A stretch of 64,000 nucleotides of DNA from Spisula solida (lineage: Eukaryota > Mollusca > Bivalvia > Venerida > Mactridae): positions 2,418,001 through 2,482,000 of the forward strand of contig OX365948.1 of the NCBI GenBank assembly GCA_947247005.1. The letters are read 5' to 3'. The number at the start of each line of letters is the position of its first letter. Positions within the stretch are counted from its first letter, which is position 1. The position numbers were made by a program, and so were the translations under genes. This document shows, piece after piece, positions 9,657-61,817 of the stretch. The notes beneath the pieces are model-generated. The model saw only the letters and a list, made by a program, of their open reading frames with translations. It was not told where the DNA came from and did no database searches.

Positions 9657-12302
9657 TCACTCACTAGTGTTATCAGAGGCTGAATAGTTTTCATAGCTGT
9701 AATCATTGCTAGTATCTGAACTGTAATGACTGTCGTCATTGCTGCTTCCAGAGCTTTTGTCAATGATAACCTCTATGGAATTACTCTCCGATGACCTGGT
9801 GTATGTAGGAGGTTGTGGTGATGCTATATGAACATTAGCACGATAATCTCTGATCTCTGTGTAGGTATTTGTTGATAATTCCACTATGTCGTCTTCATCA
9901 GAACTTTCAGAACTGTCTTGATGTGGAGAATTCAATGTTCCTTGCCCATTACCAATGTTGTTCTCATATCTAGCAGACTCTGACAGAGCACAAATGCTTG
10001 GACAAGCCTCTTTTATCAACATGATCACTTCAAATATTCCACTTGCCTTTTCATAGGACGCTGATAGGTTTTCAATATTTTCGAATGACAATGATTTGCT
10101 GCTTGCATCAGATGAACTGTCACTTGCTTCTGCTGAATCTGAAAATATATCATCAACATCAGCTGATTCGCTTGAAGTATCATACGATCTAAAATTACTT
10201 GATCCTGAGCTTGAAGACGTGAAATGAGATAGTCTTGCTTTCCTTAGACTGTTGACACCTTTCCAACACCTGCTATTGAATTGGTTAAAACAAATGGAAT
10301 ACAAAGACCGTAACAGAAAGCAATCCGTGTCATTTACAGTTTGTTGAAAGCACTCAACAAGCTTATTCGATTTACTTGCACTTGACACGTCACTACCACG
10401 ACTGCTTTGATCATTATTTGCATGTATCATTGTAGATGAACTTCCTGCAGAGCTATCCGAATGTATGTTCGAAACTGACGATTGATCTCCTGTTGTGTTT
10501 GGTACTTCGTCTGAGACATCATAATCACTGCCTTTAGTAAAAATGTTAGATTTTGAACCAGATGACTTTGCGTAAGTTCCTTCATTTGAACTGACTTCAG
10601 GAGAACCTTGGGAGTGGCTATCGCCACCAGTTTCATCCGAATAATGTTGATCACTTGTCTTTGTAATACTAACGTTATCGTCTGAGTCATTATCAATCCT
10701 TTCATCAGAAACACTATCAACACGTTCTCTGGTAATGTCCTCGCTTCTTTCAACAGATTTACTGTCTGTTTTTTCTCTGGAGCTTGCACCACCACTTTCC
10801 CCAGAAGTACTGTCGGTCCTCTCTGTTGTAGCGTCGTCACCACTCTCATCAGAAACGCTTACTGCTTCTGAAGACGTACTTCCACTTTCATTTGAAGCGC
10901 TGCTACCAGTTTCATCTGAGGCGCTGTTACCACTTTCAGTAGATGTGCTTGATGACTTGTCAACACGATCACTGGAATCCTTTGATTTACTTGTGTTTGC
11001 CGAGTCATGGTCCATTCTTTCTTCACTCATTGTTTCTGACGAAGCAGCTTCTACAGATGTTGACGACTTGTATCCATAGTTATATGTAGAATATTCTGCA
11101 GACGTGATTTCTGCCGAATTTCTCTCAGTAGATTCACCAGACGTAGAATCACTTGTGGAACCACCAGAATTCCCACTCTCACTTGAAACAGTTGTGTGCC
11201 TCGTTTCGTAAGACCCACTGTCTGTTTGAGCACTGTTATCTCTTGATATTGATTCGCTTGATGTTGATTCACGTGATATTGTTTCGCTTGATGTTGATTC
11301 ATGTGATGTTGACTCGTGTGATGTTGATTCGCTTGAGGCGGATTCACTAGAAGATGATTCGCTAGATGTTGATTCACTTGAAGACGATTCACTTGAGGTT
11401 GATTCGGACGACATCTCTGTAGATGTAGACTCGTCAGAATGAAAAGTTGACACATCATAAGTCTTGCCACCTGGCAGTGTTACGTCATTATGTTCATTTC
11501 TGTTTACTTCAGGAGATGGATTGGTGCTGGTAGATTCCGTTCCTTCTTTAGTGTTTTGATCATCTGTAGTCTCAATATTCTTAGTCCCTTGTTTATTGTC
11601 ATTACCATTTTTAGATGTGTTACCTGATGTTTCGCCATTATTTTCGGTAGCTGATTCAGTTTGTGGTCTTGAACCACCAGTTGTACTTTGTTTACCATCA
11701 GTGCTATTTTCTACAGTGTTTGTAGAATTTGATTCATCTACTGATTTTGTTGACACACTTTCCTTCTTTGTGCCTTCGGTAGATGATTTTTGTTTATTAG
11801 TACTGATGTTCCCATTGTGTGGATCTGATGCTGCTTCGTTCTGGACGTTCACTGGGTTTGTTGTCGAATCGTTCAGACCATCACCTGTTTTATGTCCTTT
11901 AGACGCACCCAATTTAGCTCTGTTTTCATCTGATATGCCACCACTGCCTCTGATAGGTGTAACAGCATTTGGTGAGTTTGTGTACAGAGGTTCAAATAAA
12001 GGAGGAGCCATTCCAGTGTCTGCTCCACCTTGACCTTGGTAATCAAATCCCTGATCAACATCAGGATCTATGGCATCAGGTGAAGCTGCGACATCGTAGA
12101 GTCCGGGATCATTTCCAAACTCGTCAAAATCGGCTTGATCGTAATCAATTGTCGTTGTATGCCTTAGTGACTGACGTGTTGATAGCTCGAAATACGGACC
12201 AAACGCTGGGTCTCTGAAGTCAGTAGCTGATGTTGGCATTGAATGAACGTGCAAGGCACTTATCCATAGATAAATTGTAAACCACTTTATTTTGTTCATC
12301 AT
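9657..12302 (-). CDS. Secreted acidic Ser/Glu/Thr-rich protein with a six-Cys C-terminal module
   Basis: 881 codons in one exon. Residues 1-21 form a signal peptide (hydrophobic IKWFTIYLWISALHVHS). Residues about 50-90 are Asp-rich. About 100-280 is Ser/Thr/Asn-rich with many N-x-S/T sites. About 288-360 is a run of ESTSSES-type repeats full of S-x-E, the target motif of secretory-pathway Fam20C kinases. After about 600 more Ser/Asp-rich sequence follows. All six cysteines lie late (651, 661, 671, 679, 767, 771): C-x9-C-x9-C-x7-C, a Ser-rich insert, then ACPSIC. Cys 651-679 and the flanking residues look helical, a folded module inside disordered sequence. No family recognised. By composition it resembles extracellular acidic phosphoproteins (shell matrix, DSPP-like); that role is inference. 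The start ATG-ATG abuts a splice acceptor, so a 5' UTR exon lies upstream. Confidence 0.85.
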   Translation of the reverse strand: MMNKIKWFTIYLWISALHVHSMPTSATDFRDPAFGPYFELSTRQSLRHTTTIDYDQADFDEFGNDPGLYDVAASPDAIDPDVDQGFDYQGQGGADTGMAPPLFEPLYTNSPNAVTPIRGSGGISDENRAKLGASKGHKTGDGLNDSTTNPVNVQNEAASDPHNGNISTNKQKSSTEGTKKESVSTKSVDESNSTNTVENSTDGKQSTTGGSRPQTESATENNGETSGNTSKNGNDNKQGTKNIETTDDQNTKEGTESTSTNPSPEVNRNEHNDVTLPGGKTYDVSTFHSDESTSTEMSSESTSSESSSSESTSSESSSSESASSESTSHESTSHESTSSETISRESTSSESISRDNSAQTDSGSYETRHTTVSSESGNSGGSTSDSTSGESTERNSAEITSAEYSTYNYGYKSSTSVEAASSETMSEERMDHDSANTSKSKDSSDRVDKSSSTSTESGNSASDETGSSASNESGSTSSEAVSVSDESGDDATTERTDSTSGESGGASSREKTDSKSVERSEDITRERVDSVSDERIDNDSDDNVSITKTSDQHYSDETGGDSHSQGSPEVSSNEGTYAKSSGSKSNIFTKGSDYDVSDEVPNTTGDQSSVSNIHSDSSAGSSSTMIHANNDQSSRGSDVSSASKSNKLVECFQQTVNDTDCFLLRSLYSICFNQFNSRCWKGVNSLRKARLSHFTSSSSGSSNFRSYDTSSESADVDDIFSDSAEASDSSSDASSKSLSFENIENLSASYEKASGIFEVIMLIKEACPSICALSESARYENNIGNGQGTLNSPHQDSSESSDEDDIVELSTNTYTEIRDYRANVHIASPQPPTYTRSSESNSIEVIIDKSSGSSNDDSHYSSDTSNDYSYENYSASDNTSE

Positions 12303-12318
12303 CTGAAATTAAAGGTAA
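12303..12318 (-). promoter_or_regulatory. 3' splice site directly before the start codon
   Basis: Read on the minus strand, the bases before the ATG are ACCTTTAATTTCAG, a good acceptor ending exactly at the initiation codon. The coding exon therefore probably begins with ATG, and the 5' UTR sits in an unseen upstream exon. Confidence 0.6.
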
Positions 12319-25986: not shown

Positions 25987-26683
25987 TTAGGTACAGAGTG
26001 ACATAATTTTCTTACAAAAAATTGCTAGTTTTAGTAGAGTATTTCTATCAGTATTGTTCATCAATTCTGAAAACTTTATTGCGTTGGGGTATGTGAAGTA
26101 ATATTGACTTAAATAATTATTCCGATCATCATTAAAATGAGAACATACAAAGAGATAATGAAACTCATCGCCCAAAAGTCCTGAATTACATAAATGACAA
26201 TGTCTAGAATTTCTGTCAATATTCAAAAATCTGCCCTTTTCAATAGGTATCTTCTGATTAATACATCTAAATTTGCAACATATATTCGCCAGGTCAGATG
26301 GCAAAACATTCAAGTACCTTTCGAACTTAAAATCATGCTTAAACATCCTATAATTCAAACATTTACTTAACTCATCTACAGAACTACTCCAGTTTTGAAT
26401 AAAGTGATCTTTCAGTCTTTCATCAACAATCCTTTTGAAGCTGGCTGGAGAATCTACATTTTGTTCCAACCAATAATTTGATAAACCAAGATTATCTAGA
26501 GTGTTTTTAATGAAACCTGTCCATTTAAGATTAACAATGTTCCGAGTGTGGAGACCATGAGATGTTCTGTATAACCCATTACAAATCTTATCTTCCTTAG
26601 CACTGATTAATTTACCCCAAAAATTCAAAATTCTGCTCTTAATTTGTACAGAAAGGGGAGTAATACCAAGTTCACCAAATATC
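25987..26683 (-). pseudogene. Retrotransposon C-terminal region
   Basis: Continues the frame after the insertion with FGELGITPLSVQIKSRILNF. It ends with RHCHLCNSGLLGDEFHYLF and a later CSHF, a Cys/His cluster common at the C terminus of such ORFs. Stop at 25987. Confidence 0.8.
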
Positions 26684-26688
26684 ATACA

Positions 26689-27092
26689 CAGTGTAGCAAT
26701 ACCACGTGGTATTTTACTACAGTTCCAAGTAGAAATTTGTAAACATTGGAACACAAATGTAGCCATAAGTATTTTATTTCTTCATCGATTTCTATGAAAT
26801 CTACGCCACGCTAAGGAGAACATTATTTGCTTTCCATGAAATATAAAATCTTTTTCAGCGGATGTGCCGTTTTGTCCATTACCCTGTGAAACTGTGGAAC
26901 GTGTAGGTTTCACAGGGTAATGGAAAAATCGGTAAAGCTGCTGAAAAAGATCTTATATTTCATGGAAACCAAATAATTTTCCCCTTAGCGTGGCGTATAT
27001 TTCATAGACATCGATTAAGAAATAAAATACTTATGGCTATTTTATTTTCCAATGTTTACAAATTTCTTCTTGTAACTGGTATTGCTACACTG
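26689..27092. mobile_element. 404-bp palindromic MITE inserted in the RT gene
   Basis: TIR CAGTGTAGCAATACCA (left) and its inverse TGGTATTGCTACACTG (right). The two halves are complementary almost throughout, centred near 26895. A 5-bp direct repeat ATACA flanks it (26684-26688 and 27093-27097). Deleting element plus one ATACA rejoins the host frame exactly (LKRSTPNC then MIFGELG), which proves the insertion boundaries. Confidence 0.9.
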
Positions 27093-27757
27093 ATACAGTT
27101 TGGTGTAGAACGCTTCAGATTTAATACAATTTTACAAAACTTGAGCTGAAACTTATCAATGATATCAACATTTTCAATGCCCCACACTTCAGATCCGTAC
27201 AAAAGGATAGGTGCTACCACTGTGTTAAACAAATTAAGTTGCATATCAATAGGTAAAAAGAGTTTACGTGCCTTCTTCAATACTGAGAACATTGCCTTTC
27301 TGGCTTGATCAACAAGATGTTTCTTTGTTCTGCCAAAATTTCCATTAAAGGAGAACTGTATCCCAAGATATGTAAAATAGTCTATTAGTTCTAAAATATT
27401 TCCTTCATATTGAAAAGCTGGTATATTGCTAAACGACCTCTTAGTCTTACAAAACACAACAACCTTAGTTTTAGCAGCATATACTTGAAGATCCCATAGA
27501 TTACAGTACTCGGACATGCCATTTAATGCTGCCTGTAAATCGTTGGCAGTTTCCGCTAAGATAACTGTATCATCAGCATATAATAACATGAACAGTCTGA
27601 AAAACACTTCTGTATCATCATCACTTAGCATATCATTAACCTTCTCAGACAGAAATTGAAATCCTTCAAATTTGGAAGACAAAAAACTATTTAAATCATT
27701 CAAAAACAATGAAAAAAAGTATGGGAGACAAATTTTCACCTTGACGAACACCAGCAT
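27093..27757 (-). pseudogene. Reverse transcriptase, motif C part
   Basis: Contains MLLYADDTVILAE (catalytic YADD box), then CNLWDLQVYAAKTKVVVF and FTYLGIQFSFNG, the standard order after motif C. It runs into the 404-bp insertion at 27092. Confidence 0.85.
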
Positions 27758-28935
27758 GACTAGTGAAAAAAACAGAAATATTGCTATTAACTTTCACACA
27801 AGATTTAGCCTTAGAGTACATATTATGAATAATTTTAAAACATTTGCCATCAACATTGGAAGCAATAATTTTGTGCCATAAAGCACTACGATTCACAGAG
27901 TCAAATGCTTTACGATAATCAATAAAAGCACAAAATAATTTCTTCTTATTTGTTAAATACAGATCAATTAGCATTTTCAATGAAAATATGTGGTCTGTAG
28001 TACCATATTGTTTTCTAAACCCAGCTTGTTCTTCAATCAAAACATTATTTTCTTCTAAAAAATTATTCAAACGTATATTAAGAACAGAGGTAAAAAGCTC
28101 ACCGAAACAACTGAGTATAGTAATGCCCCTGTAATTATCAGGACTGTCGATATCACCTTTATTTTTATAAATCGGTACTATTATACCTTTACTCCAAACA
28201 TCAGGAAAAATACCAGAGTCTAAAATAATATTGAACAACTTACAAATAACTGAGTACATTGAAATTGGAACATTTTTAAGGTACTCATTGAGAACGTTAT
28301 CAAAAACAGAGGATGCTTTATTGTTTTTCAAAGTATTCAATGCCTTTTCAATGTCATGTTCTACAAAAAGAGCACTAAGTACTTCGTTATTTTCAGGGAT
28401 GTTTCCAAGTAAAAGATCATCATCTTGGTCATCAACATTTAAATGATTCTCATTCAAATTACAAAAATGTTCATAAAAAGTTTCACAAGAAATTTTGTGA
28501 ATAACAGACTTTCTCTCACCAGAATATTTATTCAACAAACTCCAGTATGCTTTTGGATCTGAATTTTTAAGACCTCTGAACAATTTGATCATTAAAAGAT
28601 TTGAACTTCTCATTTAGCATCTTCTTATAAACTTTACTACCCTGTTGCATAGATTCGTAATTATCCCTTGATCTATTTTTCCTGTACTTATTTTTACATT
28701 TAGTGTATTGCTTTTTGGACGTTTTACACTCATCATCAAACCAAGGTTTATGTACCTTTTTGGGCTTATGTATTCTATCACCAGTAACAGTTTTATGTGT
28801 AATGAGCTCACAACTATCAGCAGCAACTGTAATTATACTACAAACTTTCTCAGTTAACTCATTTACAACAGTATTAGTGTACACCTTCGTATCAAGGATA
28901 TTATCCAATTCAACAAGTATGTTGTTAATATACTG
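27696..28935 (-). pseudogene. Retrotransposon reverse transcriptase, N-terminal half
   Basis: A linker (28908-28567) shifts frame into 28613-27696. Motifs in order: DNYRGITILSCFGELF (fingers), QAGFRKQYGTTDHIF, LFCAFIDYRKAFDSV (motif A with catalytic Asp) and AGVRQGENLSPILF (motif B). A second frameshift just after motif B leads into 27757. Confidence 0.85.
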
Positions 28936-29650
28936 AGTTCCAAAAGTTTTGCATTTTCTTTCGATAACGAAATTTCGAAAAATTGTTTAAGGTCGATAAA
29001 CAATCAATGCGTTAATGATTAAAGTTACTAATTGTCAATCAAATTACATAACGTTCAACAATTTCATCAAATAGAAATTTCGTTAAAGACATATACTCGA
29101 CACAAACTCTAAAATCAAAAGTACAGAATATTTAGTACCGGGTATGACCCCCGTAAGCCGCTCAAGAACTGAGACATCTTGATCGCTTTTACCGTATTAG
29201 TGTCTGAATATCACGTTGTGGAATATAAACCAACTCATAAACAAGTGAAGCTTCCAGTTCGGCTATAGTCTTGGGTTGAATCCTATGGCCAAACATGTCC
29301 CACACATACTCAATTGGTGCAAGGTCAGGTGACATGGTTGGCAACGGGAGGGTAGTGATGCGATTTGTCTGCAAGAACTGTTGTGTGATGCGAGAAGTGT
29401 AGACGAGCTACCTTGTGGCTACTGGTCAGTATGGGTCCAATATATGGCCTCCTCGCTCGCAAATGGTACTTTTTTGTATTTTCGTAAGCGCCTCTCCCAA
29501 CTGTCTGCTTGGTTATTGTCTGAACGTTTCGGCCAGGTGTTGTCCTAGCTGTTTTAGCTGCTGCCAGGAAACTTTTTCGATGATGATGAAGAAGCCACAT
29601 CCGTCCAAAATAAGACATGGGTGCCATTTAGCTACATGCATGATTTACAA
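28930..29650 (-). pseudogene. Tc1-like transposon fragment nested in the retrotransposon
   Basis: The left end ACTGAGTTCCAAAAGTTTTG follows a TA. Minus-strand frames at 29325-29627 and 29189-29374 show RTTPGRNVQTITKQTVGRGA, LRARRPYIGPILT and MSPDLAPIEYVWDMFGHRI. These are the helix-turn-helix end and DD-E segment of Tc1 transposases, in two frames. No inverse terminus is found on the right, so it is truncated at about 29650. Confidence 0.85.
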
Positions 29651-29654
29651 GGAT

Positions 29655-29935
29655 AAGCAGGGGCGTAACTTCCTATAGGCCATATAGGCCGCGGCCTACA
29701 CTTTTTCACTGAAAATCGAAAAAATAAAAATGCCAAAAATGCAATAAAAATCAATGGGGGTAGAGCTATGGGGTAAAGGAGTATATTCACCCTATCTCAA
29801 TTGAGATGCGTAGTTGTTCTTGTTTTTAGTCTGAAAACGGCTAAGAATGCACCTGCGGCGATATAGAAATTAAAAAAAATCCGGGGGAGCATGCCCCCGA
29901 ACCCCCCTAAAATAAAGTGGCCTACACATTGATTT
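29655..29935. mobile_element. Interspersed repeat fragment (hAT-like end)
   Basis: Begins CAGGGGCGTAACTTCCTATA and ends around AAAGTGGCCTACACATTG. It includes GGGGGAGCATGCCCCCGAAC, a word common in invertebrate dispersed repeats. It sits between the Tc1 fragment and the retrotransposon endonuclease. Confidence 0.45.
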
Positions 29936-30837
29936 CGACTAATGTTGTCAGCAATATAACTATTAACCTCAGCAAAATCTGGTAATCTACCACTTCTAGC
30001 ATTAAAATCACCAAAAATACAAAATGAACAATCCTCATTTTTAGTATTGAGATCTAATAAAATATCTTCAAGCTTATCAAATAAATCCGAAGAACTATAG
30101 GTAGAGCTCTCAGGAGGAATATAGACTGTCCCCAAAATCTTGTTCTCATTTCTGAATTTGAACCATAAAAAATTCTCACTACAAGATTCATCTAGTAGAA
30201 CAATTTTATTACAAATACTATTTCTAATAAATGCACCAACTCCTCCAGATTTACGCCGACAATTATTTCTGTTATTACAATAAAAGGTGTACCCTGGGAT
30301 ATGCACATCATCATAAGCATCAAGTTTTGTTTCAGCAATACAACAAATATCATAGTTATTAACAAACTCATTGAATTCTGGAATTAGCAATTTGGCAGAT
30401 AATCCACAAACATTTATAAATGAGCATTTAATAATACTGGAATGGTTAGGTAAACAGTATATATGATCATGAACTACGAAATCAAAAGATTCACTTAGAT
30501 CCTGAATAGTGTTACTAGATTCATTCAAATTATCAACAGTGTGAATGTGATTGGAATCAGAGTTTTCAACTGGAATATACCGAGTATCATTTATCAACGA
30601 CCTGTCATTTACATCCTGCACAATGCCATTGTCAAAAGATTCTGTCAACGCTGTATTGAGGATGTGAGTATCACTGAAAAAAGTACTAACTGGAACAAAC
30701 TGGCTATCATTAGCCAGGGGGCTGTCAATGTGATGATTATCACTGGAAAATATATTAACTGGAACAAACTGGCTATCATTAGCTATGGAACTGTCAATGT
30801 GATCAGCATCACTGGTAAAAATATTAACTGGAACAGA
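29930..30837 (-). pseudogene. Retrotransposon endonuclease domain and N-terminal repeats
   Basis: The open minus-strand stretch includes CSFINVCGLSAKL, CCIAETKLDAYDDVHIPGY, FIYNNR/GGVGAFIRN-like residues and FCIFGDFNARSG, matching the APE endonuclease motifs N, E-T-K-L and GDFN. Upstream of it a roughly 21-residue unit (ANDSQFVPVNIF..SD..HIDS) is repeated about four times. The frame closes at a TAG near 30838. Codons at 29797-29930 belong to the inserted repeat rather than to the retrotransposon. Confidence 0.8.
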
Positions 30838-36032: not shown

Positions 36033-36166
36033 TCACAAATCTGGGAATCTGGTAGGGTCTTCACGGTAACCATTAGGGATCACAAATTTGGAATCTTGAA
36101 GATCATCACGCCATTGGAACAAGGTGAAAGTCACCTTAGCTGTCACAGTCGGGAATACAGGTAATT
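36033..36166 (-). CDS. ANKRD13C: ANKRD13C last exon
   Basis: Acceptor AACTTACAG. Encodes LPVFPTVTAKVTFTLFQW and ends EDPTRFPDL-stop (TGA at 36033-36035), the characteristic 13C terminus. Confidence 0.95.
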
Positions 36167-39100
36167 CTGTAAGTTTACATAATACATCAAATGATATTAT
36201 ATCATACATGCATGGCAGCTGCCTTTATATGACTGTTCCATTTAATAATCATACATAGAATGAAAATTATGATGCAGGAACATTACAAACTCGTTTTTGG
36301 ACGGAATGTCAAGCAGGTAACTTAGAGTGATGAAGAGGTCTCCCCTCATCCTAGCATCTGAGTCATTCCTTTCAGCAGCGTCAACAACCCACAATAAATG
36401 ACTTAGTTATGGTCTGCACAAGCTAAATTAGGGTCATTATTTTTTTCTTTGTGACCTTGACATTTGAGATATCAATGTAATTGTTTTGCATGACACACTG
36501 TCTGGTAGTAGATAACATTTGTGCTACACTATTTTTCAATCCCACAATGAACGACTTAGTTATCCTCTGGATAAACTAAATTGTGGCCACTTTTGACCTT
36601 TGAACTTCAAGTGTGACCTTTGAAATATTGACATAATTGTTCCGCATGACACACCCTCTCATGATGGTAAACAAAAGTGTAAAATTATTAAAATATCGTT
36701 CAATGTATGGATTTCTTGTATACAACAATGTTTACAAACCACTTGTACATGCAATGATGAGATAACATCACTTACCTAACTTTGATAAGATAACATCGCT
36801 TACCTAACTTTGATAATATAACATCACTTACCTAACTTTGATAAGATAACATCGCTTACCTAACTTTGATAAGATCACTTACCTAACTTTGATAAGATAA
36901 CATCGCTTACCTAACTTTGATAAGATCACTTACCTAACTTTGATAAGATAACATCACTTACCTAACTTTGATAACATCACTTACCTAACTTTGATAAGAT
37001 AACATCACTAACCTAACTTTGATAAGATCACTTACCTAACTTTGATAAGATAACATCACTTACCTAACTTTGATAACATCACTTACCTAACTTTGATAAG
37101 ATAACATCACTAACCTAACTTTGATAAGATCACTTACCTAACTTTGATAAGATAACATCACTAACCTAACTTTGATAACATCACTTACCTAACTTTGATA
37201 AGATAACATCACTAACCTAACTTTGATAATATAACATCACTTACCTAACTTTGATAAGATCACTTGCCTAACTTTGATAAGATTACATCACTTACCTAAC
37301 TTTGATAACATCACTTACCTAACTTTGATAAGATAACATCACTAACCTAACTTTGATAAGATCACTTACCTAACTTTGATAAGATAACATCACTAACCTA
37401 ACTTTGATAACATCACCTAACTTTGATAAGATAACATCACTAACCTAACTTTGATAATATAACATCACTTACCTAACTTTGATAAGATCACTTGCCTAAC
37501 TTTGATAAGATAACATCACTAACCTAACTTTGATAAGATCACTTACCTAACTTTGATAAGATAACATCACTTACCTAACTTTGATAAGATAACATCACTT
37601 ACCTAACTTTGATAATATAACATCACTTACCTAATTTTGATAAGATCACTTACCTAACTTTGATAAGATCACTTGCCTAACTTTGATAAGATAACATCAC
37701 TTACCTAACTTTGATAATATAACATCACTTACCTAACTTTGATAAGATAACATCGCTTACCTAACTTTGATAACATCACTTACCTAACTTTGATAAGATA
37801 ACATCACTAACCTAACTTTGATAAGATCACTTACCTAACTTTGATAAGATAACATCACTAACCTAACTTTGATAAGATCACTTACCTAACTTTGATAAGA
37901 TAACATCACTTACCTTATTTTGATAAGATAACATCACTAACCTAACTTTGATAAGATAAGATCACTTACCTAACTTTGATCAGATAACATCACTTACCTA
38001 ACTTTGATAAGATAACATCACTTACCTAACTTTACAGGAAACCCTGGTGGTAACTTGTTTTGCATAAAATCACGTAACTTTTGGAACTGTTTGAATGGAG
38101 CTACAACCTCGAGAACGTCCAGTAATCTATAAATAAACATGCAATAACCTCAATAATGCGCAAACATCTATGTATTAAATTCTATAACTAGTAGGGCTAA
38201 CAGAATAGCTATGTTACTTGTACCAGTAAAGGTTTTACTAAAATAGGAAATTCATTAATTTCACTCAATGTTTCTAACAATTGTGCTGAACGACCATTCC
38301 GTTGAGCAACTGTTTTCAGACCCTCCCAAGGATGGTCGCCTAAAACAAGTAAAACTGTAATTATGTTTGTATTGATACTTACACATCAACTGTCATTGGA
38401 AATTCTTTGCTCTGAAAGAAAACAACAAATGTTCATTATTATGCTAAATGGCACCAGTTCTAGAGAAGGTACACATGTACACATTGTGCACATGTGCCTT
38501 GACAAATTCATTTTTGGAAAAGAAAAGTTATTCTTCATGCAAGTATGTAGAACTTATGATACTACTGCAACAGAGCTGATTTTAACCCTTGACACCTTTA
38601 AACAAGGCAACTTAGCAATTTCTGTGATTTTTCCTTCTTTTTTAGGTAGGGGTGACTAATGAGTCCAATTTTGACTATTGCAATACTATTGCTATTGCTG
38701 AAAGTACTATTGCAATACTATTGTATTGCTGGAAACTATTGCGATTCTATTGCAATAGTTATTGCCAATAGTCGGGAGTCCATACGGAGAAAATACGACG
38801 AGCCATGGCATCGGAGAGTAGAATGTGGCATCCATGCTATATGTTATCTATGATATGTGTGCAATCTGAAACGGCCGGATGCCATCCGTGATTTTGCCTC
38901 GTTTTCTCAGAATTAGGTCAAAGGTCAAATGAGTGCAGTTTTTATATATCTCCCTCGAAATATCATTATATCTCTGTCAGTTTTCGGTCAAAAATTGTAC
39001 AAATGGTATCAAAATGAAGCTAATGCACTGGGCTATTAATAAAAGTAACTTTTTATTAATTCATGCATTTGTATACTCATGAATATTGATGAGAACACCT

Positions 39101-54100: not shown

Positions 54101-57100
54101 AATGCTTTAATGATAACTGTTCAGCTTTGAAAGACAGGGAAGTAAAACGATTCATAAACGTTTGTGACTTCAGTTACGGAGACATTTTCATAAACCCAAT
54201 GTTTCATGGTACAAATCCCGGACCAGGTATTCGATGTAAGATCCGGGAAAATATGTGTGATTCTCACCAAAGTTTTACTTGAGTGGCTCAATTGTGTAAA
54301 TCTGTATGTCTAACGTATGATGATTTATGAAAATGATATTCCATTTACTTGCAAGCGTTCTTGGGTCAACAACTACTTGAACGATTATTCTATCAATTAT
54401 ATAGTACTGTATACGTATTATATGCCTAATTTTGTTCACTATACTATGTTATTTAATGCTTACTGATGAGATATGGCGTTCTATCAGTGAAATAAAACTT
54501 ATATCAGTCACTGGTTATCACCTACAATGTGACTGATATAAGCTCCGCCCCCTCACAGGGACTACTTTAATTTACCAAAATCTCAACACTAAAATGTCTG
54601 TAACTTTTTTATTACTGAACGGAAACATGTCATGTGGGGGTTTTTATTCTTAGTTAGACCATTTCCTACAAGTTGGTGTATAATTTAATGCAAAATTCTC
54701 AAAAAAGTCGTTTTCACTTATACACCATAATCCAAGATGGCGGATTTTGAAGTGAAAAATATGAATGGAATAGCATATTCATACGTAGCCTAACTACAGT
54801 GGTAATTTGGCATAAATAGTACCAGTTTTGACACCATATAAGCATTAAATAAATAGAATATTTGTTTGTTTTGATTGAATATGGTTAATATCTCATCTTG
54901 TAGTGATAAAATTTTAATATTTTCACTCGCGCTACGCGCTCTTGAAAATATTGAATTTTATCACTACACGATGAGATATAAACCATATTCAATCAAAACA
55001 AACAAATATCCTCTATTTATTTTGCTGCATGTAAAATCACTTCAATACAGTTCTACAGATTTATCTATATAATATTGTTAATATGTATATACTTTGTGTA
55101 TGGGCTGGAGGCCTTTTGTACATTAGATATTTGAAATTGAGTGGTTCAGTGTGGTACAGGAATGCATTCATCACCATTTATCACTATAAACATTGTATTT
55201 CATAGCCCTATGCAAAGCACTAACGCCGTGTAAAACAGGGCAACCTCATTTTGTGGGCCGGGTCAGCGTTAGTGACCTTGTTTAGTCACCTGTAACACTC
55301 GGACAGCGTAATTGTTTTTGTTCATAATTTTACTGTATATAGTAAAAGGGTTCCGATTTCTGACAGTATATAAATAGAGGCTATTTGTTTGTTTTGATTG
55401 AATATGGTTTATATATCATCATGCAGTGATAAAATTCAATATTTACAAGAGCGCGTAGCGCCAGTGATGATATTAAAATTTTATCACTACCAGATGAGAT
55501 ACTAACCATATTCAATCAAAACAAATATTCTATTTATTTAATGCTTATCTAGTGTCAAAACTGGTACTATTTATGCCAAATTACCACTGTGGTTAAACTG
55601 CGTATGAGTATGTTATTGCATTCATATTTTTCAATTAAAAATCTGCCCTCTTGGATTATGGTGAATATGTGAAAACGCCTTTTTTGAGAATTTTGCATCA
55701 AATCATACACCAACTTGTAGGAAATTGTCTAACTAAGAATAAAAAACCCAACATGTTTATGTTCAGTAATAAAAAGTTACGGACAGTTTAGAATTGAGTT
55801 TTTGGTAAAATTAAAGTAGTCCCAAATGGGGGGGCGGAGCTTATATCAGTCACAATGTGAGTGATAACCAGTGACTGATATAGGTTTTCTTTTACTGATA
55901 GAACTCCATATCTCATCAGTTAGCATTATTAAATACAGGATATTTGTTTGTTTTGATTGAATATGGTTTATATATCATCAAGTAGTGATAAAATTCAATA
56001 TTTACAAGAGCTCGTAGCGCCAGTGATAATATTAAAATTTTATCACTACAAGATGAGATATTAACCATATTCAATCCAAACAAACAAATATTCTATTTAT
56101 TTAATGCATATCTGATGTCAAAACTGGTACTATTTATGCCAAATTACCACTGTGGTTAGGCTGCTTATGAATATGTTATTCTATTCCTATTTTTCCTATT
56201 TATTTCAGTCACATTGTAGGTGATAACCAACTTGAATGATATAGGTTTTATTTCACTGATGGAACTCCATATCTAATCAGTTAGCATTAAATATTTTGAT
56301 TTATTCTGTTTAACCATGCAGGTTTTGTGACAATAGTCCTGATTATTTTTTAATGTCCTAAGTATTGGAAAGTATATATAAGACAGTTTATACTAAGTAC
56401 TGCTTGATTTATTCTTATGATTCAAATAATGTTGATTTTGGACCAAATTAAAATAAACATAATTATATAATATATAGACATAATTTGGATTACTGTAAAA
56501 TCATTTAATTTCAAACGGACAAAATTTTGTGATTTTGGTAAAAAAGACCATAAATTTTTACTTATACTTTCAAGGATTTTGGATTTCATGAAAAATGGCA
56601 AAGTCAAAATATGCACATTCAAATGATCAGAAATCATTCAAAAATCAAACAGATATAATATTTGTTTAATTAAATGTTGATTTACGCAAATAAACAACCA
56701 AAAATCCAAGGCATATACATGTAACCTGACTCAATTTAAGCATGTATGGGAGCCACTGTAAACTTGACATATTTAATGGTATAATTATTCATTGGGGATT
56801 TGATTTTGTGGTTGAGGTCATCCAAGAAATTGAATCTCTCACTAATATTAATGATTTTACAGTAATAGACAAACAGCAGTTACCCCAACTGTGAAAATCC
56901 CACTTGAGTTCCAGGTAAAAATCCCCAATATCCTGTAATGCCTGTATGAGAGCTGGTCGTCGTATATCTAGTTGTTCCCGGGATTGTTGTTTTAGTTTCT
57001 TTAGTAACGAACATACTGCAATAAGATATAACATTCTATAGAACATACTGCAATAAGATATAACATTCTATAGAACATACTGCAATAAGATATAACATTC

Positions 57101-58706
57101 TATAGAACATACTGCAATAAGATATAACATTCTATGATATTTAACCCGTTACCATTTCCTTGCCCATGCGTTCTTAAATATTGTGTTTAGTCCCACAGGC
57201 CAACAGTATAAATTTATGAATCTGTCATACGGAGACTACCCGTTCAATTATTCTGACACTGTGCCAACCAGCAATTACCTCTTACTATCCTCATATGCTG
57301 AGCGACAAGCAAGAGGGCTACACCAGTTTCGTTTTTAATGAATTAGGTCTTCTGCAGCTGGAGATTGATCCACAACCTTCTGTTCTTGAGGTGGATCACA
57401 CGGCCACAGCTTAAACCACAGTCAGTACAAACAAATCCTAGAAGGTTATCATCTAACTACAAGAGGTTATACTGAAACTAGATTCTGTTTGTAGAAATAA
57501 GGTAAATCAAATCTTACTAGTTTTTCTGTCACCAAAACTAATGGCTTCTGCAAGCGGGCTCCATCCTGCATTATTCTTCACTTTCACTAGTGCATTGTGG
57601 GAGAGTAGAAGCATAACACATTCTGAAAGTAAGTGTGAAATGTACACTATATTTTCATTCAACCATCATAGCCACAGTATTATGAGTATAGTTCTGCTCA
57701 TAGGACCTGCACTTCAATAATTTTATTGGGAGTTGTAAAGAACCTATATGTATGTAATAAATTTAGAACATCAATGGTCCACCGTTCAGACAAATTTTAC
57801 TATAAAGTCCACATTTTTGTCTTAGACTAATAGACTAGGACTGCCTTAATTCATGATTTGAAATAATGCAAGAATTCTCTCAACATCTTTTATTTTTTCA
57901 AGCGTGAATGCCGCTAAATCCCCTACTAGGTTTGCTTTATTGAGTAAACAGTCTAACATGTCTGTTTGCATGAAACAAGGGTTCCATTTGACAAGTGAGT
58001 AGGAGTTCTGACCCTTGAAATTTCCAAAAAGCCACTGTTGACCCTCAAGATTTTGGTTTGATGGGTCATTTTCTCATAAAATCATGGATATTTTGCCTAT
58101 ACAATGGTAAAATTTAGTCAAAAGAATCAAAATGACCCTTCAGATTCAGAAGCTATTGGAAACCTTGATATAAAGTCACTGTGGTATTTGCTGACAAGTG
58201 GTCAAATATTATTGAAAATGGTGTGGTAGGAGATAAAACTATTGGTCTTTAAGAAGAAGTTCAGAAATAATAGTCACCGTGGTCTCTTTGACAATTGACT
58301 TTCAGCAGTTTAATTTTCTCGTTGAGTTGTGTGCTGGGCAATGTGTGGTGTGACTGTGGTTTGTGTTATTTCTGTTTTCTGCTGATTGTTTCAATTAAGT
58401 GATGCCTTCCCTATCTGATTTTGCATTATCTTTGTTTGTAGGTGGTCTTTAATACAGGTTTGACTGTATAGCCGTATAATGATATGGCCAATGATCTAGA
58501 AAGCAACTATGTTCCCGATTTAGTGTTTTTAAATTAATTCTATATAATTCTATTTCAATGTCAGTGTAACGATTGATCACCAAATCAAAGCTGTTTGCCA
58601 GTAAACCCCATTCCACAATTATTAACAACCATTACCGGTTATTGAAAGTACAAGCCATACAAACCTTTATGTCCTTTCATCACGGCTAAGTGCAGTGGTG
58701 TGTTAC
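36033..58706 (-). CDS. ANKRD13C: ANKRD13C orthologue, 12 exons, 5' end missing
   Basis: ANKRD13C proteins are ER-associated ankyrin proteins that regulate folding and exit of some G-protein-coupled receptors. Seen: twelve GT-AG exons in consistent phase: 58665-58706, 57518-57622, 56884-57015, 53218-53284, 49829-49973, 49359-49490, 48782-48849, 45979-46063, 45082-45225, 38383-38411, 38026-38126, 36033-36166. Together they give 394 in-frame codons including the stop. They cover the end of the ankyrin repeats (NTPLHLAV; GWSPLAEAIS), then the whole GPCR-chaperone domain (LDTTLVDFND; SRAQTGWLFREDKT; LPPGFPVKL) to the terminal EDPTRFPDL. No ubiquitin-interacting motifs follow, which fits 13C rather than 13A/B/D. 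The N terminus was not found. Introns are loaded with arrays and transposons. Two arrays copy the gene's own splice junctions. Confidence 0.95.
36290..36720. repeat. Degenerate ~170-bp dispersed repeat, two units
   Basis: Two diverged units (about 36390-36545 and 36546-36700) share CCCACAAT(A/G)AA.GACTTAGTTAT, TGTGACCTTTGA-like words and GCATGACACAC. Similar in style to the mollusc gtgacct elements. Intronic. Confidence 0.55.
36757..38025 (-). repeat. Splice-donor minisatellite, 28/23-bp units, about 48 copies
   Basis: Read on the gene strand, each unit is AAAGTTAG then GTAAGTGATGTTATC(TTATC), the same bases as the end of exon 38026-38126 and the first intron bases. Units are 28 bp, or 23 bp with an internal 5-bp loss. 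Most keep GTAAGTG or GTAAGCG, about eleven read GTTAGTG, and three have lost GT (GCAAGTG). The array abuts the authentic donor. Confidence 0.97.
38026..38126 (-). CDS. ANKRD13C: ANKRD13C exon
   Basis: 101 bp. Acceptor TTTATAG, donor TTAG|GTAAGTG. Encodes LLDVLEVVAPFKQFQKLRDF and KLPPGFPVKL. Its exon-end/donor junction is the founder of the 28-bp array that follows. Confidence 0.95.
38200..38343 (-). other. Unassigned intronic open segment with acceptor
   Basis: On the gene strand, TACTTGTTTTAG is followed by a frame reading GDHPWEGLKTVAQRNGRSAQ and about 23 more codons. It does not match ANKRD13C. If spliced to the microexon it would shift frame and hit a stop. Possibly a fragment of a repeat or of another gene. 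Confidence 0.3.
38383..38411 (-). CDS. ANKRD13C: ANKRD13C 29-nt microexon
   Basis: Acceptor TTTCTTTCAG, donor GT|GTAAGTATC. Encodes SKEFPMTVD plus two bases of a Val codon, exactly filling the conserved SQEFPL-type segment between flanking exons and keeping phase. It is separated from the previous exon by a 6.7-kb intron. Confidence 0.88.
38673..38770. repeat. CTATTGCAATA-rich simple repeat
   Basis: Overlapping CTATTG and CAATA words recur over about 95 bp at the left border of the large insert. Palindromic in nature. Confidence 0.6.
40207..40490 (+). mobile_element. tRNA-derived SINE
   Basis: The head is tRNA-like: A-box TGACCTAGAGG (about 40223) and B-box-like GGTCCCGTGTTTAATCC (40259), in the right order and spacing. 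A body follows with CTCTGAGCAAGAATAACCCA, GTGAATTGATGCCTGTAAGG and GGGCGCCGCTGATAGATG. This resembles the conserved central domain shared by several invertebrate SINE families. It is not a tRNA gene: the cloverleaf is imperfect and it continues into SINE body. Confidence 0.75.
40629..40828. repeat. Perfect 100-bp tandem duplication
   Basis: 40629-40728 repeated as 40729-40828, beginning CAAGTTTGTACAACTCTCTG. Two copies with no visible differences indicate a recent duplication or an assembly duplication. Confidence 0.9.
41400..42220. repeat. CCCGA/TCGGG-motif-rich block, second locus
   Basis: Like 17840-18660: dense CCCGA, CCGATG and CGGGA words, including ATTTCCATCGGGAGTAAATC and ATCCATCGGAAGTACATCCC. 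These parallel the ATTTCCATTGGGAGTACATC of the first locus. Not coherently coding. Confidence 0.5.
43020..43130. repeat. Palindrome, ~50-bp arms
   Basis: GTTAGAACATATTAAGTAAA (about 43023) is exactly inverted at about 43110-43128. The loop is CGCTTCGCTTCGCTCGC-like. Probably the terminal foldback of a MITE. Confidence 0.8.
44265..45070. other. ANKRD13C intronic, repeat-derived
   Basis: AT-rich. Contains CTATCG/GATAG palindromic words (44490-44580) and an unassigned segment with repeated TCCCAATTTCAAAT words (44640-44900). No exon seen. Confidence 0.4.
45082..45225 (-). CDS. ANKRD13C: ANKRD13C exon
   Basis: 144 bp, phase 0 at both ends. Acceptor TTACATAG, donor ATG|GTGAGT. Encodes PDLPDVSWEDYITAEQ and SKESIRAFKATIAM. 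Confidence 0.95.
45600..45905 (+). mobile_element. Mollusc-type dispersed repeat
   Basis: Order of words: AAGAAATGTTTGTAAAACAC, GGTGAAGGTCACAGTGACCT, then ACAGACAGACCAAATGACCG and the tail GTAAGGGGGGGATAATAA. Non-coding, intronic. Confidence 0.6.
45906..45960. repeat. 16-bp tandem repeat, three copies
   Basis: CATACGCCATGTCAG units repeated three times directly upstream (in plus coordinates) of exon 45979-46063. Intronic. Confidence 0.85.
45979..46063 (-). CDS. ANKRD13C: ANKRD13C exon
   Basis: 85 bp. Acceptor TTGTTTCAG, donor GAG|GTAAAG. Encodes REHLSLEDIQKNKAMVENLT and KGSWDHKE. Confidence 0.95.
46495..47657 (+). mobile_element. 'gggcataatttcaac' element, copy 2
   Basis: Same head (GCGCTCCACTATTCGCAAC) and tail (TTCTACGAATAGTGGAGCT) as 32648-33446, but with about six to seven tandem core units of roughly 160-170 bp. 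Unit number therefore differs between copies of one family. Intronic in ANKRD13C. Confidence 0.85.
47658..48473 (+). mobile_element. 'gtgacct' element, five ~145-bp tandem units
   Basis: Units begin TTTTTCTTTGATGTGACCT and contain GACCCAGTTGCGAACTTGAC and GTGACCTCTAGAGTGTTAAC. The end has GGTGGACGGCGCATGACGGA, GGGTGATCACAATAGCTCAC and the terminal hairpin GAGCACTTTGTGCTC. Directly abuts the preceding element. Confidence 0.85.
48782..48849 (-). CDS. ANKRD13C: ANKRD13C exon
   Basis: 68 bp. Acceptor TACTGCAG, donor AG|GTAGGC. Encodes ETVGDFAAEFYHVNGLNLES then KKR. Confidence 0.95.
49359..49490 (-). CDS. ANKRD13C: ANKRD13C exon
   Basis: 132 bp, phase 0 at both ends. Acceptor TTGTATAG, donor ACT|GTAAGA. 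Encodes EIDILMRSDIMAAQMSTK and FSRAQTGWLFREDKT, the best conserved segment. Confidence 0.95.
49829..49973 (-). CDS. ANKRD13C: ANKRD13C exon (GPCR-chaperone domain start)
   Basis: 145 bp. Acceptor ATTTACAG, donor GAG|GTAAAT. Encodes LDTTLVDFNDMRWERGDITF and VMDNKLKVYQKVRYE. Confidence 0.95.
50020..50210. other. ANKRD13C intronic spacer
   Basis: Short unique sequence before the 36-bp array. Nothing recognised. Confidence 0.3.
50211..51768. repeat. 36-bp minisatellite, about 43 copies
   Basis: Unit GGTTGTATCACTGAGGTATG + GCTGCTTACAGCAGGT, with shorter 23-bp units (TGACAGCAGG junction) at about 50591, 50691, 50831, 50928 and 51246. These mark higher-order blocks. The unit is 12 codons, so both strands are open for hundreds of codons without being genes. 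In the ANKRD13C intron between exons 53218-53284 and 49829-49973. Confidence 0.97.
51769..52577. other. ANKRD13C intronic unique sequence
   Basis: AT-rich. Contains two diverged copies of a roughly 65-bp segment near 51950-52080 (ATATGTC(C/T)CC..CC and GGAGATACAG words). No exon. Confidence 0.4.
52578..52890. repeat. (CCCTA)n pentanucleotide array, ~62 copies
   Basis: Essentially perfect CCCTA repeats over 313 bp. The gene (minus) strand is (TAGGG)n. Being 15-periodic in codons it gives long TLPYP-type ORFs, an artefact. G-rich strand able to form quadruplexes. Confidence 0.98.
53218..53284 (-). CDS. ANKRD13C: ANKRD13C exon
   Basis: 67 bp. Acceptor TTTCAG, donor AG|GTAATTG. Encodes PLVSRILPSDLCKIHKKGSN and a split Arg codon. 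Confidence 0.93.
53285..54451. other. ANKRD13C intronic, no element recognised
   Basis: AT-rich sequence with short unsupported ORFs. No exon or RNA found. Confidence 0.4.
54452..55025. mobile_element. Family-A palindromic element, left part
   Basis: Starts TTTAATGCTTACTGATGAGA and is collinear with 8701-9270, including the GGCGGAGC-type box and the inner palindrome (CACTCGCGCTACGCGCTC). The right outer arm is missing. Confidence 0.85.
55380..55932. mobile_element. Family-A palindromic element, right part
   Basis: Inverse of the 54452 copy from the inner palindrome (AAGAGCGCGTAGCGCCAGTG) to the outer arm ending CATCAGTTAGCATTATTAAA. It may be the displaced second half of the 54452 copy, with 55030-55380 inserted. 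Confidence 0.8.
55940..56292. mobile_element. Family-A palindromic element, short copy
   Basis: Inner palindrome plus a right arm with an internal deletion of the GGCGGAGC part. Ends AATCAGTTAGCATTAAAT. Confidence 0.8.
56884..57015 (-). CDS. ANKRD13C: ANKRD13C exon
   Basis: 132 bp. Acceptor TTATTGCAG, donor G|GTAACTG. Encodes LLKKLKQQSREQLDIRRP and GDFYLELKWDFHSW. Its acceptor junction is repeated four times in tandem just outside the exon. Confidence 0.95.
57009..57135 (-). repeat. Splice-acceptor tandem repeat, 32-bp unit, four copies
   Basis: On the gene strand each unit reads ATAGAATGTTATATCTTATT then GCAG|TATGTT. This is the authentic acceptor of exon 56884-57015 plus the first bases of the exon. 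The copy touching the exon is the real junction; three more lie upstream in the intron. Confidence 0.95.
57136..57517. other. ANKRD13C intron
   Basis: Unique intronic sequence, nothing recognised. Confidence 0.35.
57518..57622 (-). CDS. ANKRD13C: ANKRD13C exon (ankyrin repeat)
   Basis: 105 bp. Acceptor CTTTCAG, donor A|GTAAGAT. Encodes CVMLLLSHNALVKVKNNAGW then SPLAEAISFGDRKT, the second ankyrin-repeat segment. Confidence 0.93.
57623..58664. other. ANKRD13C intron
   Basis: AT-rich intron without a recognisable element or exon. Confidence 0.35.
58665..58706 (-). CDS. ANKRD13C: ANKRD13C exon (ankyrin repeat)
   Basis: 42 bp. Acceptor TGTATTCAG, donor G|GTTTGT. Encodes (G)NTPLHLAVMKGHK(E), an ankyrin-repeat signature. 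It is the most 5' exon identified here. Confidence 0.85.
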
Positions 58707-60563: not shown

Positions 60564-60584
60564 TAGAAGACATACTGGTGTACC

Positions 60585-61817
60585 ATGATGAGTATAAAGT
60601 TCATGTTTTGGATAATACTAGTCAATACCATTCAACCATCATTGCAAGGAACATTTGAAGATATACAGCAACTTTATGCTTATCTAGAACCTAATATGGA
60701 GCCCAACATACGACCTGTGATCAATCAAGGTCACAGAGTTAATGTTGAAGTTTGGCCTTTCATACGAACAATTAGAGACCTGGATGAAAAGGCCCAGGTG
60801 TTGACCTCAACTCTGGCAATGCGTCTCAACTGGAAATGTGAAACTTTGACATGGAATGCGTCAGAATTTGGTGATACAAGATATATGTTCATTTCACCAC
60901 GAAAAATGTGGACTCCAGATGTTAATTTCCACCATACAGTTAGTTCTTTTGTTGGTGTGGAAATGGCGGATAATTTGAAAATCCAACTTGATTCTAATGG
61001 AACAGTTGAGTGGTATACTGGAGCGTTTATAAGCACTGAATGTAGTATTGATATAAGCAAATATCCTTTTGACACCCAAACATGCTCTATTGTTCTTGGT
61101 AGAATGTCATCGTATGATTACCAAGTCATGTTTGTTCAAATTACAAACAAACTGGATATATCTGTATTTGAACTTAATGATGAGTGGGATCTCATTGATT
61201 CTAGGGTTGGGGTCATGAAAATGAGTGTAGTTAACACCTATCTACGAATAGACATAGATCTACAGAGACGATCTTTGTTTTACATTATCAATCTGATACT
61301 ACCAGTGATTTTATTATCTTCAATGAATATTTTAAGCTTCAAGATACCAGTAATCAGTGGAGAAAGAATTGGTTACTGCATCTCCCTGCTTCTCACATTT
61401 GTTGTATTTCTGAATATGGTCAATGAAACCGTGCCGCAAGTATCGAAGTCAGTGTCGTACTTTCAACTGTATATCATTATACAGCTAGGACTTGGTGTTG
61501 TCATAACAACAATATCCATACTTCTCTTACAGTCGGTAAATGAGGAGAAACAAGGCGGAGTCAGTGGTTGCTTAGCAACAATATGTAAGAAGATGGCAAG
61601 TCATAGTCAGCAATCTATACAAATTGAAGTGAAACATGATGAGGAACGGAAGGACGAAGATAAGATGGCAGAGAGATATTGTGTAGATGACAGGGAAGAT
61701 AGTAGACTATTTCATACAATTAATGTGGTTAGCAGGTTGGATAGAATATGCTTCTGGATATTTTTATTATTATATGTCATTTCAACATTAGTATGTTTAC
61801 TGGTGATGCTACTCTAG
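60585..61817 (+). CDS. Cys-loop ligand-gated channel subunit, nAChR-like non-alpha, intronless
   Basis: 410-residue pentameric receptor subunit of the plasma membrane, complete in one exon. An in-frame TAG at 60564 precedes ATG-ATG. Residues 1-21: signal peptide. Extracellular domain: MWTPDVNF (loop A region) and the Cys-loop C153-x13-C167 around SKYPFDTQT. M1 about 231-253, M2 about 262-283 after SGER (Glu at the cytoplasmic ring, typical of cation channels), M3 about 294-315, a short M3-M4 loop of about 70 residues rich in Lys/Glu/Asp, and M4 about 388-410 ending LLVMLL. Odd points: no vicinal Cys pair in loop C, and the loop-B GSWTYD motif reads GRMSSYD, so the usual agonist-binding Trp is gone. 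Probably a non-alpha or orphan subunit. Candidate AATAAA at 62392 or 62809. Confidence 0.93.
   Translation: MMSIKFMFWIILVNTIQPSLQGTFEDIQQLYAYLEPNMEPNIRPVINQGHRVNVEVWPFIRTIRDLDEKAQVLTSTLAMRLNWKCETLTWNASEFGDTRYMFISPRKMWTPDVNFHHTVSSFVGVEMADNLKIQLDSNGTVEWYTGAFISTECSIDISKYPFDTQTCSIVLGRMSSYDYQVMFVQITNKLDISVFELNDEWDLIDSRVGVMKMSVVNTYLRIDIDLQRRSLFYIINLILPVILLSSMNILSFKIPVISGERIGYCISLLLTFVVFLNMVNETVPQVSKSVSYFQLYIIIQLGLGVVITTISILLLQSVNEEKQGGVSGCLATICKKMASHSQQSIQIEVKHDEERKDEDKMAERYCVDDREDSRLFHTINVVSRLDRICFWIFLLLYVISTLVCLLVMLL

Follow-up and report, generated by a model that had tools for sequence, protein, structure and literature searches.

We analysed a 64,000-nucleotide stretch of the Spisula solida genome (C5:2418001-2482000), referred to here as the window. 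Its minus strand carries exons of an ANKRD13C gene, and the last intron between coding exons of this gene contains a minisatellite made of copies of the adjoining exon-intron junction. Nine exons, from 53284-53218 to 36166-36033, have AG/GT borders and together form a single 300-codon open frame; the joined exons match the ANKRD13 C-terminal domain (Pfam ANKRD13_C, PF11904; 2.5e-62), and a public protein search returned Mactra antiquata ANKRD13C with 96% identity across the whole query. The gene model is firm.

The penultimate coding exon (38026..38126, minus strand, 101 nt), defined by the joined frame, the Pfam ANKRD13_C match and the residues of related proteins, ends in CCTGTAAAGTTAG, and the intron opens with GTAAGTGATGTTATC; the junction reads AAAGTTAG|GTAAGTG, and the intron phase is 1. 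The last intron (36167..38025, minus strand, 1,859 bp), placed by the frame in the same phase, runs from GTAAGTG to ACTTACAG. It is followed by the last coding exon (36033..36166, minus strand), likewise placed by the frame, which ends with the stop codon TGA and encodes the 44 residues that splicing at any downstream donor would remove. A micro-exon of 29 nt (38383..38411, minus strand) encoding SKEFPMTVD was identified by a small-exon scan and by the frame; it replaced an open frame at 38338-38212, which had been tried as the preceding exon and was rejected when the splice phases failed. At the junction itself, all 21 comparable proteins among the best 30 matches read PV-[KR]-[LI]-E-[LI]-P, with nine having K-L-E as here.

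The minisatellite (36755..38033, minus strand) was delimited by TRF, by splitting into units and by pattern search. TRF, run on the window, reports a period of 28 and 49.0 copies, and splitting gives 49 tandem units, of which 30 are 28 bp long and 17 are 23 bp, with single units of 19 and 29 bp. The first-pass annotation had described about 48 tandem copies of the gene's own 5' splice junction in units of 28 and 23 bp, a description borne out by both the unit total and the lengths (47/49 units). The array starts at 38033, 8 bp within the exon, such that copy 1 is the authentic junction, and it occupies 1,271 bp of the intron. Nearly all units carry the eight exonic bases AAAGTTAG followed by the donor GTAAGTG or a variant of it; the common unit is AAAGTTAG + GTAAGTGATGTTATC (+ TTATC), and the 23-bp units lack 5 bp in the TTATC-rich tail. 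The final copy, TCATCATTGC, merges into different intron sequence. An array that begins at an exon end and is composed of donor-consensus units has the anatomy of the minisatellite in human IFI6 (discussed below).

When a 23-mer of the unit was searched with up to 3 mismatches, all 48 matches in the window fell inside the array (mean of 0.00 in 100 shuffles). Units of 28 and 23 bp follow each other in recurring mixtures; a repeated string of unit types extends over at most five units, compared with a mean of 2.9 and a maximum that is also five in 500 shuffles of unit order.

Splice donors within the array

The motif GTAAGT is kept in 30 of the 49 copies, including copy 1, and is changed in 19 of the 48 copies downstream. 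By class, 29 copies read TTAG|GTAAGTGA and one reads TAAG|GTAAGTGA; the rest have GTTAGTG (11 copies), GTAAGCG (4), GCAAGTG (3) or a 4-bp deletion (1). Donor strength was assessed as the computed pairing with the 5' end of U1. This pairing is -11.5 kcal/mol for 29 copies, the authentic donor among them, and -11.4 for one further copy; it falls to -9.6 for GTAAGCG, -7.6 for GTTAGTG, -7.0 for the deletion and -6.8 for GCAAGTG. The eight other ANKRD13C donors that were scored range from -4.3 to -9.2 kcal/mol, against -11.4 to -11.5 in 30 array copies. The earlier statement that most copies keep a near-consensus donor is thus upheld, most being as strong as the authentic site by U1 pairing. Its counts of about eleven GTTAGTG copies and three copies without GT were both exact, but the three said to have lost GT carry GC instead, and the four GTAAGCG copies were absent from it. 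Since donors of the GC-AG type are known to be functional, loss of function in these three is not supported.

Among the 31 units that measure 28-29 bp, the substitution types number two in the eight exonic bases, two in the six donor bases and five in the other 14 bases. These counts, drawn from units that share ancestry, indicate neither protection nor directed weakening.

The downstream donors had been expected to shift the reading frame in most cases, depending on the unit length. Instead, each of the 48 later donors leads immediately to one and the same in-frame stop (...PVKLGK*), whatever the lengths of the intervening units, because GTAAGTGA falls in phase 1: the frame at a downstream donor is G|GT AAG TGA, and TGA is reached after five intronic bases. 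Use of such a donor is predicted from the frame to cost the last 44 residues of ANKRD13C. The stop would lie 20 nt from the new junction for donor 2, 48 nt for donor 3 and 76 nt for donor 4. Nonsense-mediated decay usually follows a 50-55 nt rule, so decay of the mis-spliced message is predicted from about donor 4 onward.

Junction arrays elsewhere in the genome

The S. solida assembly is described (PMC11101916) as comprising 932.1 Mb in 38 scaffolds, the longest 69.0 Mb, from 31-fold HiFi coverage, with an alternate haplotype deposited (GCA_947247015.1); for Spisula subtruncata, PolyA RNA-Seq data have been deposited (ERR11439629; PMC11249531). Our genome searches covered 931,988,947 bases in 36 contigs, and the match counts are lower bounds. 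The 28-mer unit with up to 2 mismatches has at least 29 matches, and all 29 are within the ANKRD13C array; no second genomic place was found at this threshold, which is not the distribution of a dispersed satellite or mobile element. For a 17-mer (AGGTAAGTGATGTTATC), allowing up to 1 mismatch, the genome gave at least 62 matches: 45 are in the array and 17 are scattered, each of the latter with one mismatch. The reversed 17-mer, as a control, has 8 matches, or about half as many as the scattered ones. It is therefore hardly credible that a dispersed satellite settled beside the exon and matches the exon end by chance: nothing in its favour was found, all 28-mer matches lying in the array and the scattered 17-mer matches being imperfect and roughly twice the control. 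A wide dispersal of the 28-bp unit was the outcome that the first-pass annotation had named as fatal to its copy-of-own-junction reading, and that reading withstands the search.

Arrays with similar anatomy were sought in the genome as tandem AGGTAAGT words, the upstream edges being read by eye. This gave 18 places: nine on C1 among the matches listed, and all nine arrays with triples at exact periods of 31 and 34. The C1 places comprise eight among the pair matches listed (0-32 Mb) and one longer-period array among the single-word matches listed (0-2.9 Mb). Four places were set aside, C1:5393740 as a word pair only and C1:13806126, C4:41288018 and C10:37657635 with the edge unread. In nine of the 14 arrays that were read, the start coincides, as judged by eye, with the end of an exon that looks coding and has an AG acceptor. 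The clam genome apparently holds a group of arrays of this kind, the one in ANKRD13C among them. The remaining five (C1:433012, C1:25638990, C1:32160567, C10:51178065 and C13:35690572) have no clear exon at the upstream edge. The array at C1:32160567-32164070 is long and has a 37-bp unit (CAGGTAAGTATGTTG..).

Four of the nine exons were named by search: LIG1 (C1:628235-629537; 4.3e-17), MICU1 (C1:13968287; 5.9e-11), SART3 (C11:4624458; 2.2e-16) and PELO (Pelota; C11:47011806; 2e-9). LIG1, PELO and SART3 are likely essential genes. Three exons are named weakly: a FANCD2-like exon (Pfam 0.057, below the cut-off, and without a match in a PDB search), an exon of a leucine-rich repeat (LRR) protein (Pfam 0.0037, also below the cut-off) and an exon that we take to be FRAS1/FREM-like from a motif, for which the next exon is in frame by eye and a Pfam search gave no match. 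At C6:9979922 and C1:23844585 there are open frames only, with no match above the Pfam cut-off. The number of exonic nucleotides in common with the next unit is 36 for LIG1, 31 for FRAS1/FREM, 25 for both PELO and LRR, 24 for the FANCD2-like exon, 22 for C1:23844585, 15 for SART3, 9 for C6:9979922, 8 for ANKRD13C and 6 for MICU1. The unit of the LIG1 array copies the stretch coding for the active-site motif CEYKYDGERAQ. The SART3 array has TTTG|GTAAGT as its authentic donor and often ATAG|GTAAGT in later copies, which shows that a later copy can match the consensus more closely than the genuine site does.

Origin and persistence of the array

We consider it probable (approximately 0.7) that the ANKRD13C array arose by tandem duplications of the exon-intron junction and has been tolerated since the first donor was kept, with splicing proceeding normally at that donor. 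A short duplication across the junction would have been harmless, since the exon and the first donor would be unchanged and the extra copies would all be intron. From two copies on, the array could grow and shrink like any minisatellite, in a repeat-rich genome (minisatellites make up 6.8% of a 190-kb genome sample); the mixed 28+23 unit patterns suggest unequal exchange or slippage after the duplication. Copy 1 would be held by selection on both the protein and the splice site while the later, nearly neutral copies drift, and the array would survive because duplications spare the first donor and make later copies intron. The eight exonic bases encode conserved residues ([KR]-[LI]-E, 21/21), which points to the exon as the older sequence and to the array as its copy. 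Duplication is also favoured by the like anatomy at other exons, where 6 to 36 exonic bases recur in the next unit, and by the downstream donor changes, which are not avoided. The earlier proposal of selection for the first donor fits the contrast between an intact copy 1 and the altered copies downstream, but neutrality of the later copies predicts the same pattern.

If the gene is correctly spliced, as we presume, the first donor must win, either by being transcribed first or through exon definition; a later donor, if used, would yield ANKRD13C without its C-terminal end or, if far enough downstream, a message subject to decay. One line of work speaks against this explanation: when identical 5' splice sites compete in vitro and U1 is abundant, the one lying closest to the 3' splice site is reportedly preferred, and such a preference would predict mis-splicing at the ANKRD13C array.

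It is doubtful that tolerance should give way to a reading in which splice donors are hotspots of minisatellite birth or growth, for example through transcription-linked breakage. The pooled counts look strong: AGGTAAGT triples at 16-46 bp spacing number 6,562, compared with 582 for the reversed word (an 11-fold pooled excess), and pairs 8,561 compared with 992, even though single AGGTAAGT words are slightly rarer than reversed ones (41,329 and 44,871). The word with its GT destroyed (AGGAAAGT) forms 519 pairs and its reverse 743, and among the 14 sampled arrays nine begin where a coding-looking exon ends. Yet no excess is seen at the two single exact periods tried (9 versus 11 reversed at period 31; 27 versus 41 at period 34), and for this reason we dropped the claim. 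The pooled counts are of word matches, neither arrays nor confirmed donors, and are dominated by long arrays: the 37-bp C1 array alone provides over half of the AGGTAAGT triple places among the matches listed. In a small sample of loci, counted by eye among the matches listed, the donor word has five loci in 32 Mb and AGGAAAGT has about 14 in 288 Mb. A broader proposition can be offered only tentatively: that in this clam minisatellites have arisen repeatedly at the 5' splice junctions of many genes, core genes among them, and that the spliceosome reliably keeps to the first among dozens of identical or stronger downstream donors. If true, it would amount to natural proof, on the scale of a genome, that donors are chosen by being transcribed first or through exon definition.

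Two further readings would give the array a function, besides the speculative U1-titrating decoy raised in the first-pass annotation. The array might be kept as a switch, in which tunable use of poison donors downstream truncates ANKRD13C or triggers decay and so sets its expression. The single stop common to all 48 downstream donors and the retention of GTAAGT in 30 of 49 copies, with U1 pairing stronger than at the donors scored elsewhere in the gene, speak for such a switch. The stop, however, arises from GTAAGTGA in phase 1 and does not need selection, 19 of the 48 downstream donors are changed, and unrelated genes have similar arrays; we therefore think a switch quite unlikely. We rate as highly improbable a second possibility, dual-specific or recursive splicing, in which each TTAG|GTAAGT would serve as both acceptor and donor, the intron would be removed stepwise and re-splicing would correct the use of wrong donors. 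AG|GT is present in 46 of 49 copies and AG|GC in the other three, and AG|GT sites in tandem repeats are reported to be used in human UBC and to be over-represented in repeat genes (PMC10809524). Against this, each TTAG is preceded by a purine run (AAAG) and a weak pyrimidine tract, as judged by eye, and units of 23-28 bp are singly too short as introns. Duplication followed by tolerance remains our preferred account.

Arrays of this type have a precedent in human IFI6; the clam array is longer and has a stop built in that all its later donors share. The IFI6 unit is 12 bp, is in frame and adds residues; this minisatellite with multiple splice donor sites (the gene is also called G1P3 or 6-16) was reportedly described by Turri, Cuin and Porter in 1995. 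In IFI6, two of the downstream repeat units serve as donors, and three mRNAs result (PMC4526556). The likeness to the system in that report is in minisatellite units with splice donors, any use of the later donors in the clam being hypothetical; the differences are that the clam has 49 copies of mostly 23/28 bp, that every later donor would lead to the same stop, and that several clam genes are affected. Minisatellite expansion at exon-intron boundaries alters gene structure in human segmental-duplication genes, with 27 intron modifications reported (PMC2812944). The repeats described there are variable, lie in recent paralogues and change exons or create new introns, whereas here one array in a single gene has copied its donor dozens of times. 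Human UBC and VCX3A are described as having dual-specific splice sites within tandem repeats (PMC10809524): these share with the clam array tandem AG|GT sites bounded by the repeat unit, the acceptor role in the clam being putative, but UBC has coding units with lengths divisible by three, while those of the clam are intronic except for the exonic start of copy 1. In Caenorhabditis elegans, the mostly intronic minisatellite CeRep25B is statistically linked with multiple alternative splicing decisions (PMC4039745). As presented there, that repeat is common to many loci and has regulatory motifs; the clam array copies its host's own junction. A literature search limited to open-licence papers found, among the titles listed, no report of junction-copying donor arrays in molluscs, which is a weak negative.

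The interest of the array is as a natural experiment rather than a new mechanism. Studies of how one is chosen among equally good competing 5' splice sites have used a small number of artificially duplicated sites. ANKRD13C is a natural gene with 30 intact GTAAGT motifs among 49 copies, like arrays lie at LIG1, MICU1, SART3 and PELO exons, and each array lets donor usage be read against distance at nearly constant sequence. The ANKRD13C array also shows that tandem repeats can touch a coding exon and leave the encoded protein sequence unchanged if the junction itself is what is copied.

Other arrays and genes in the window

ANKRD13C contains a second, mirror-image array, of four 32-bp units (57009..57135, minus strand), identified by TRF (100% match) and a 20-mer scan. 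It repeats the acceptor junction TTGCAG|TATGTTC, with seven exonic bases included, of an exon at 56884..57015 (minus strand; from the scan, with the low-side end placed by eye) that encodes ..CSLLKKLKQQSRE... The scan for junction copies used 20-mers with up to 4 mismatches and covered 21 junctions of the modelled exons, leaving out the donors of two exons. It returned 48 matches for the donor at 38026 and four for the acceptor of the exon that begins at 57015; all remaining ANKRD13C junctions in the scan are single, save for one stray with 4 mismatches for the acceptor at 38126. When the 23 arrays of the window were placed at random, two or more spanned junctions in 0.4% of 200,000 trials, a figure that is a guide only, as the test was devised after both arrays were known and has one exon edge off by one base.

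A further array lies at 208-725 (plus strand), in the intron after an ESCO1/2-like exon that ends at 181. It has nine copies of a 57-bp unit, starts 27 bp past the exon, and has in each unit the acceptor-like stretch TTGTCTTCTAACAG or a variant. The ESCO1/2-like exon pieces match the Pfam ESCO1/2 acetyl-transferase domain (4.3e-25). Three other features were recognized by eye: broken pieces of a LINE-like element with endonuclease and reverse transcriptase frames (25990-30837, minus strand), a single open frame resembling a Cys-loop ligand-gated channel (60567-61814, plus strand), and a long open frame rich in serine, with a possible signal peptide (9660-12308, minus strand).
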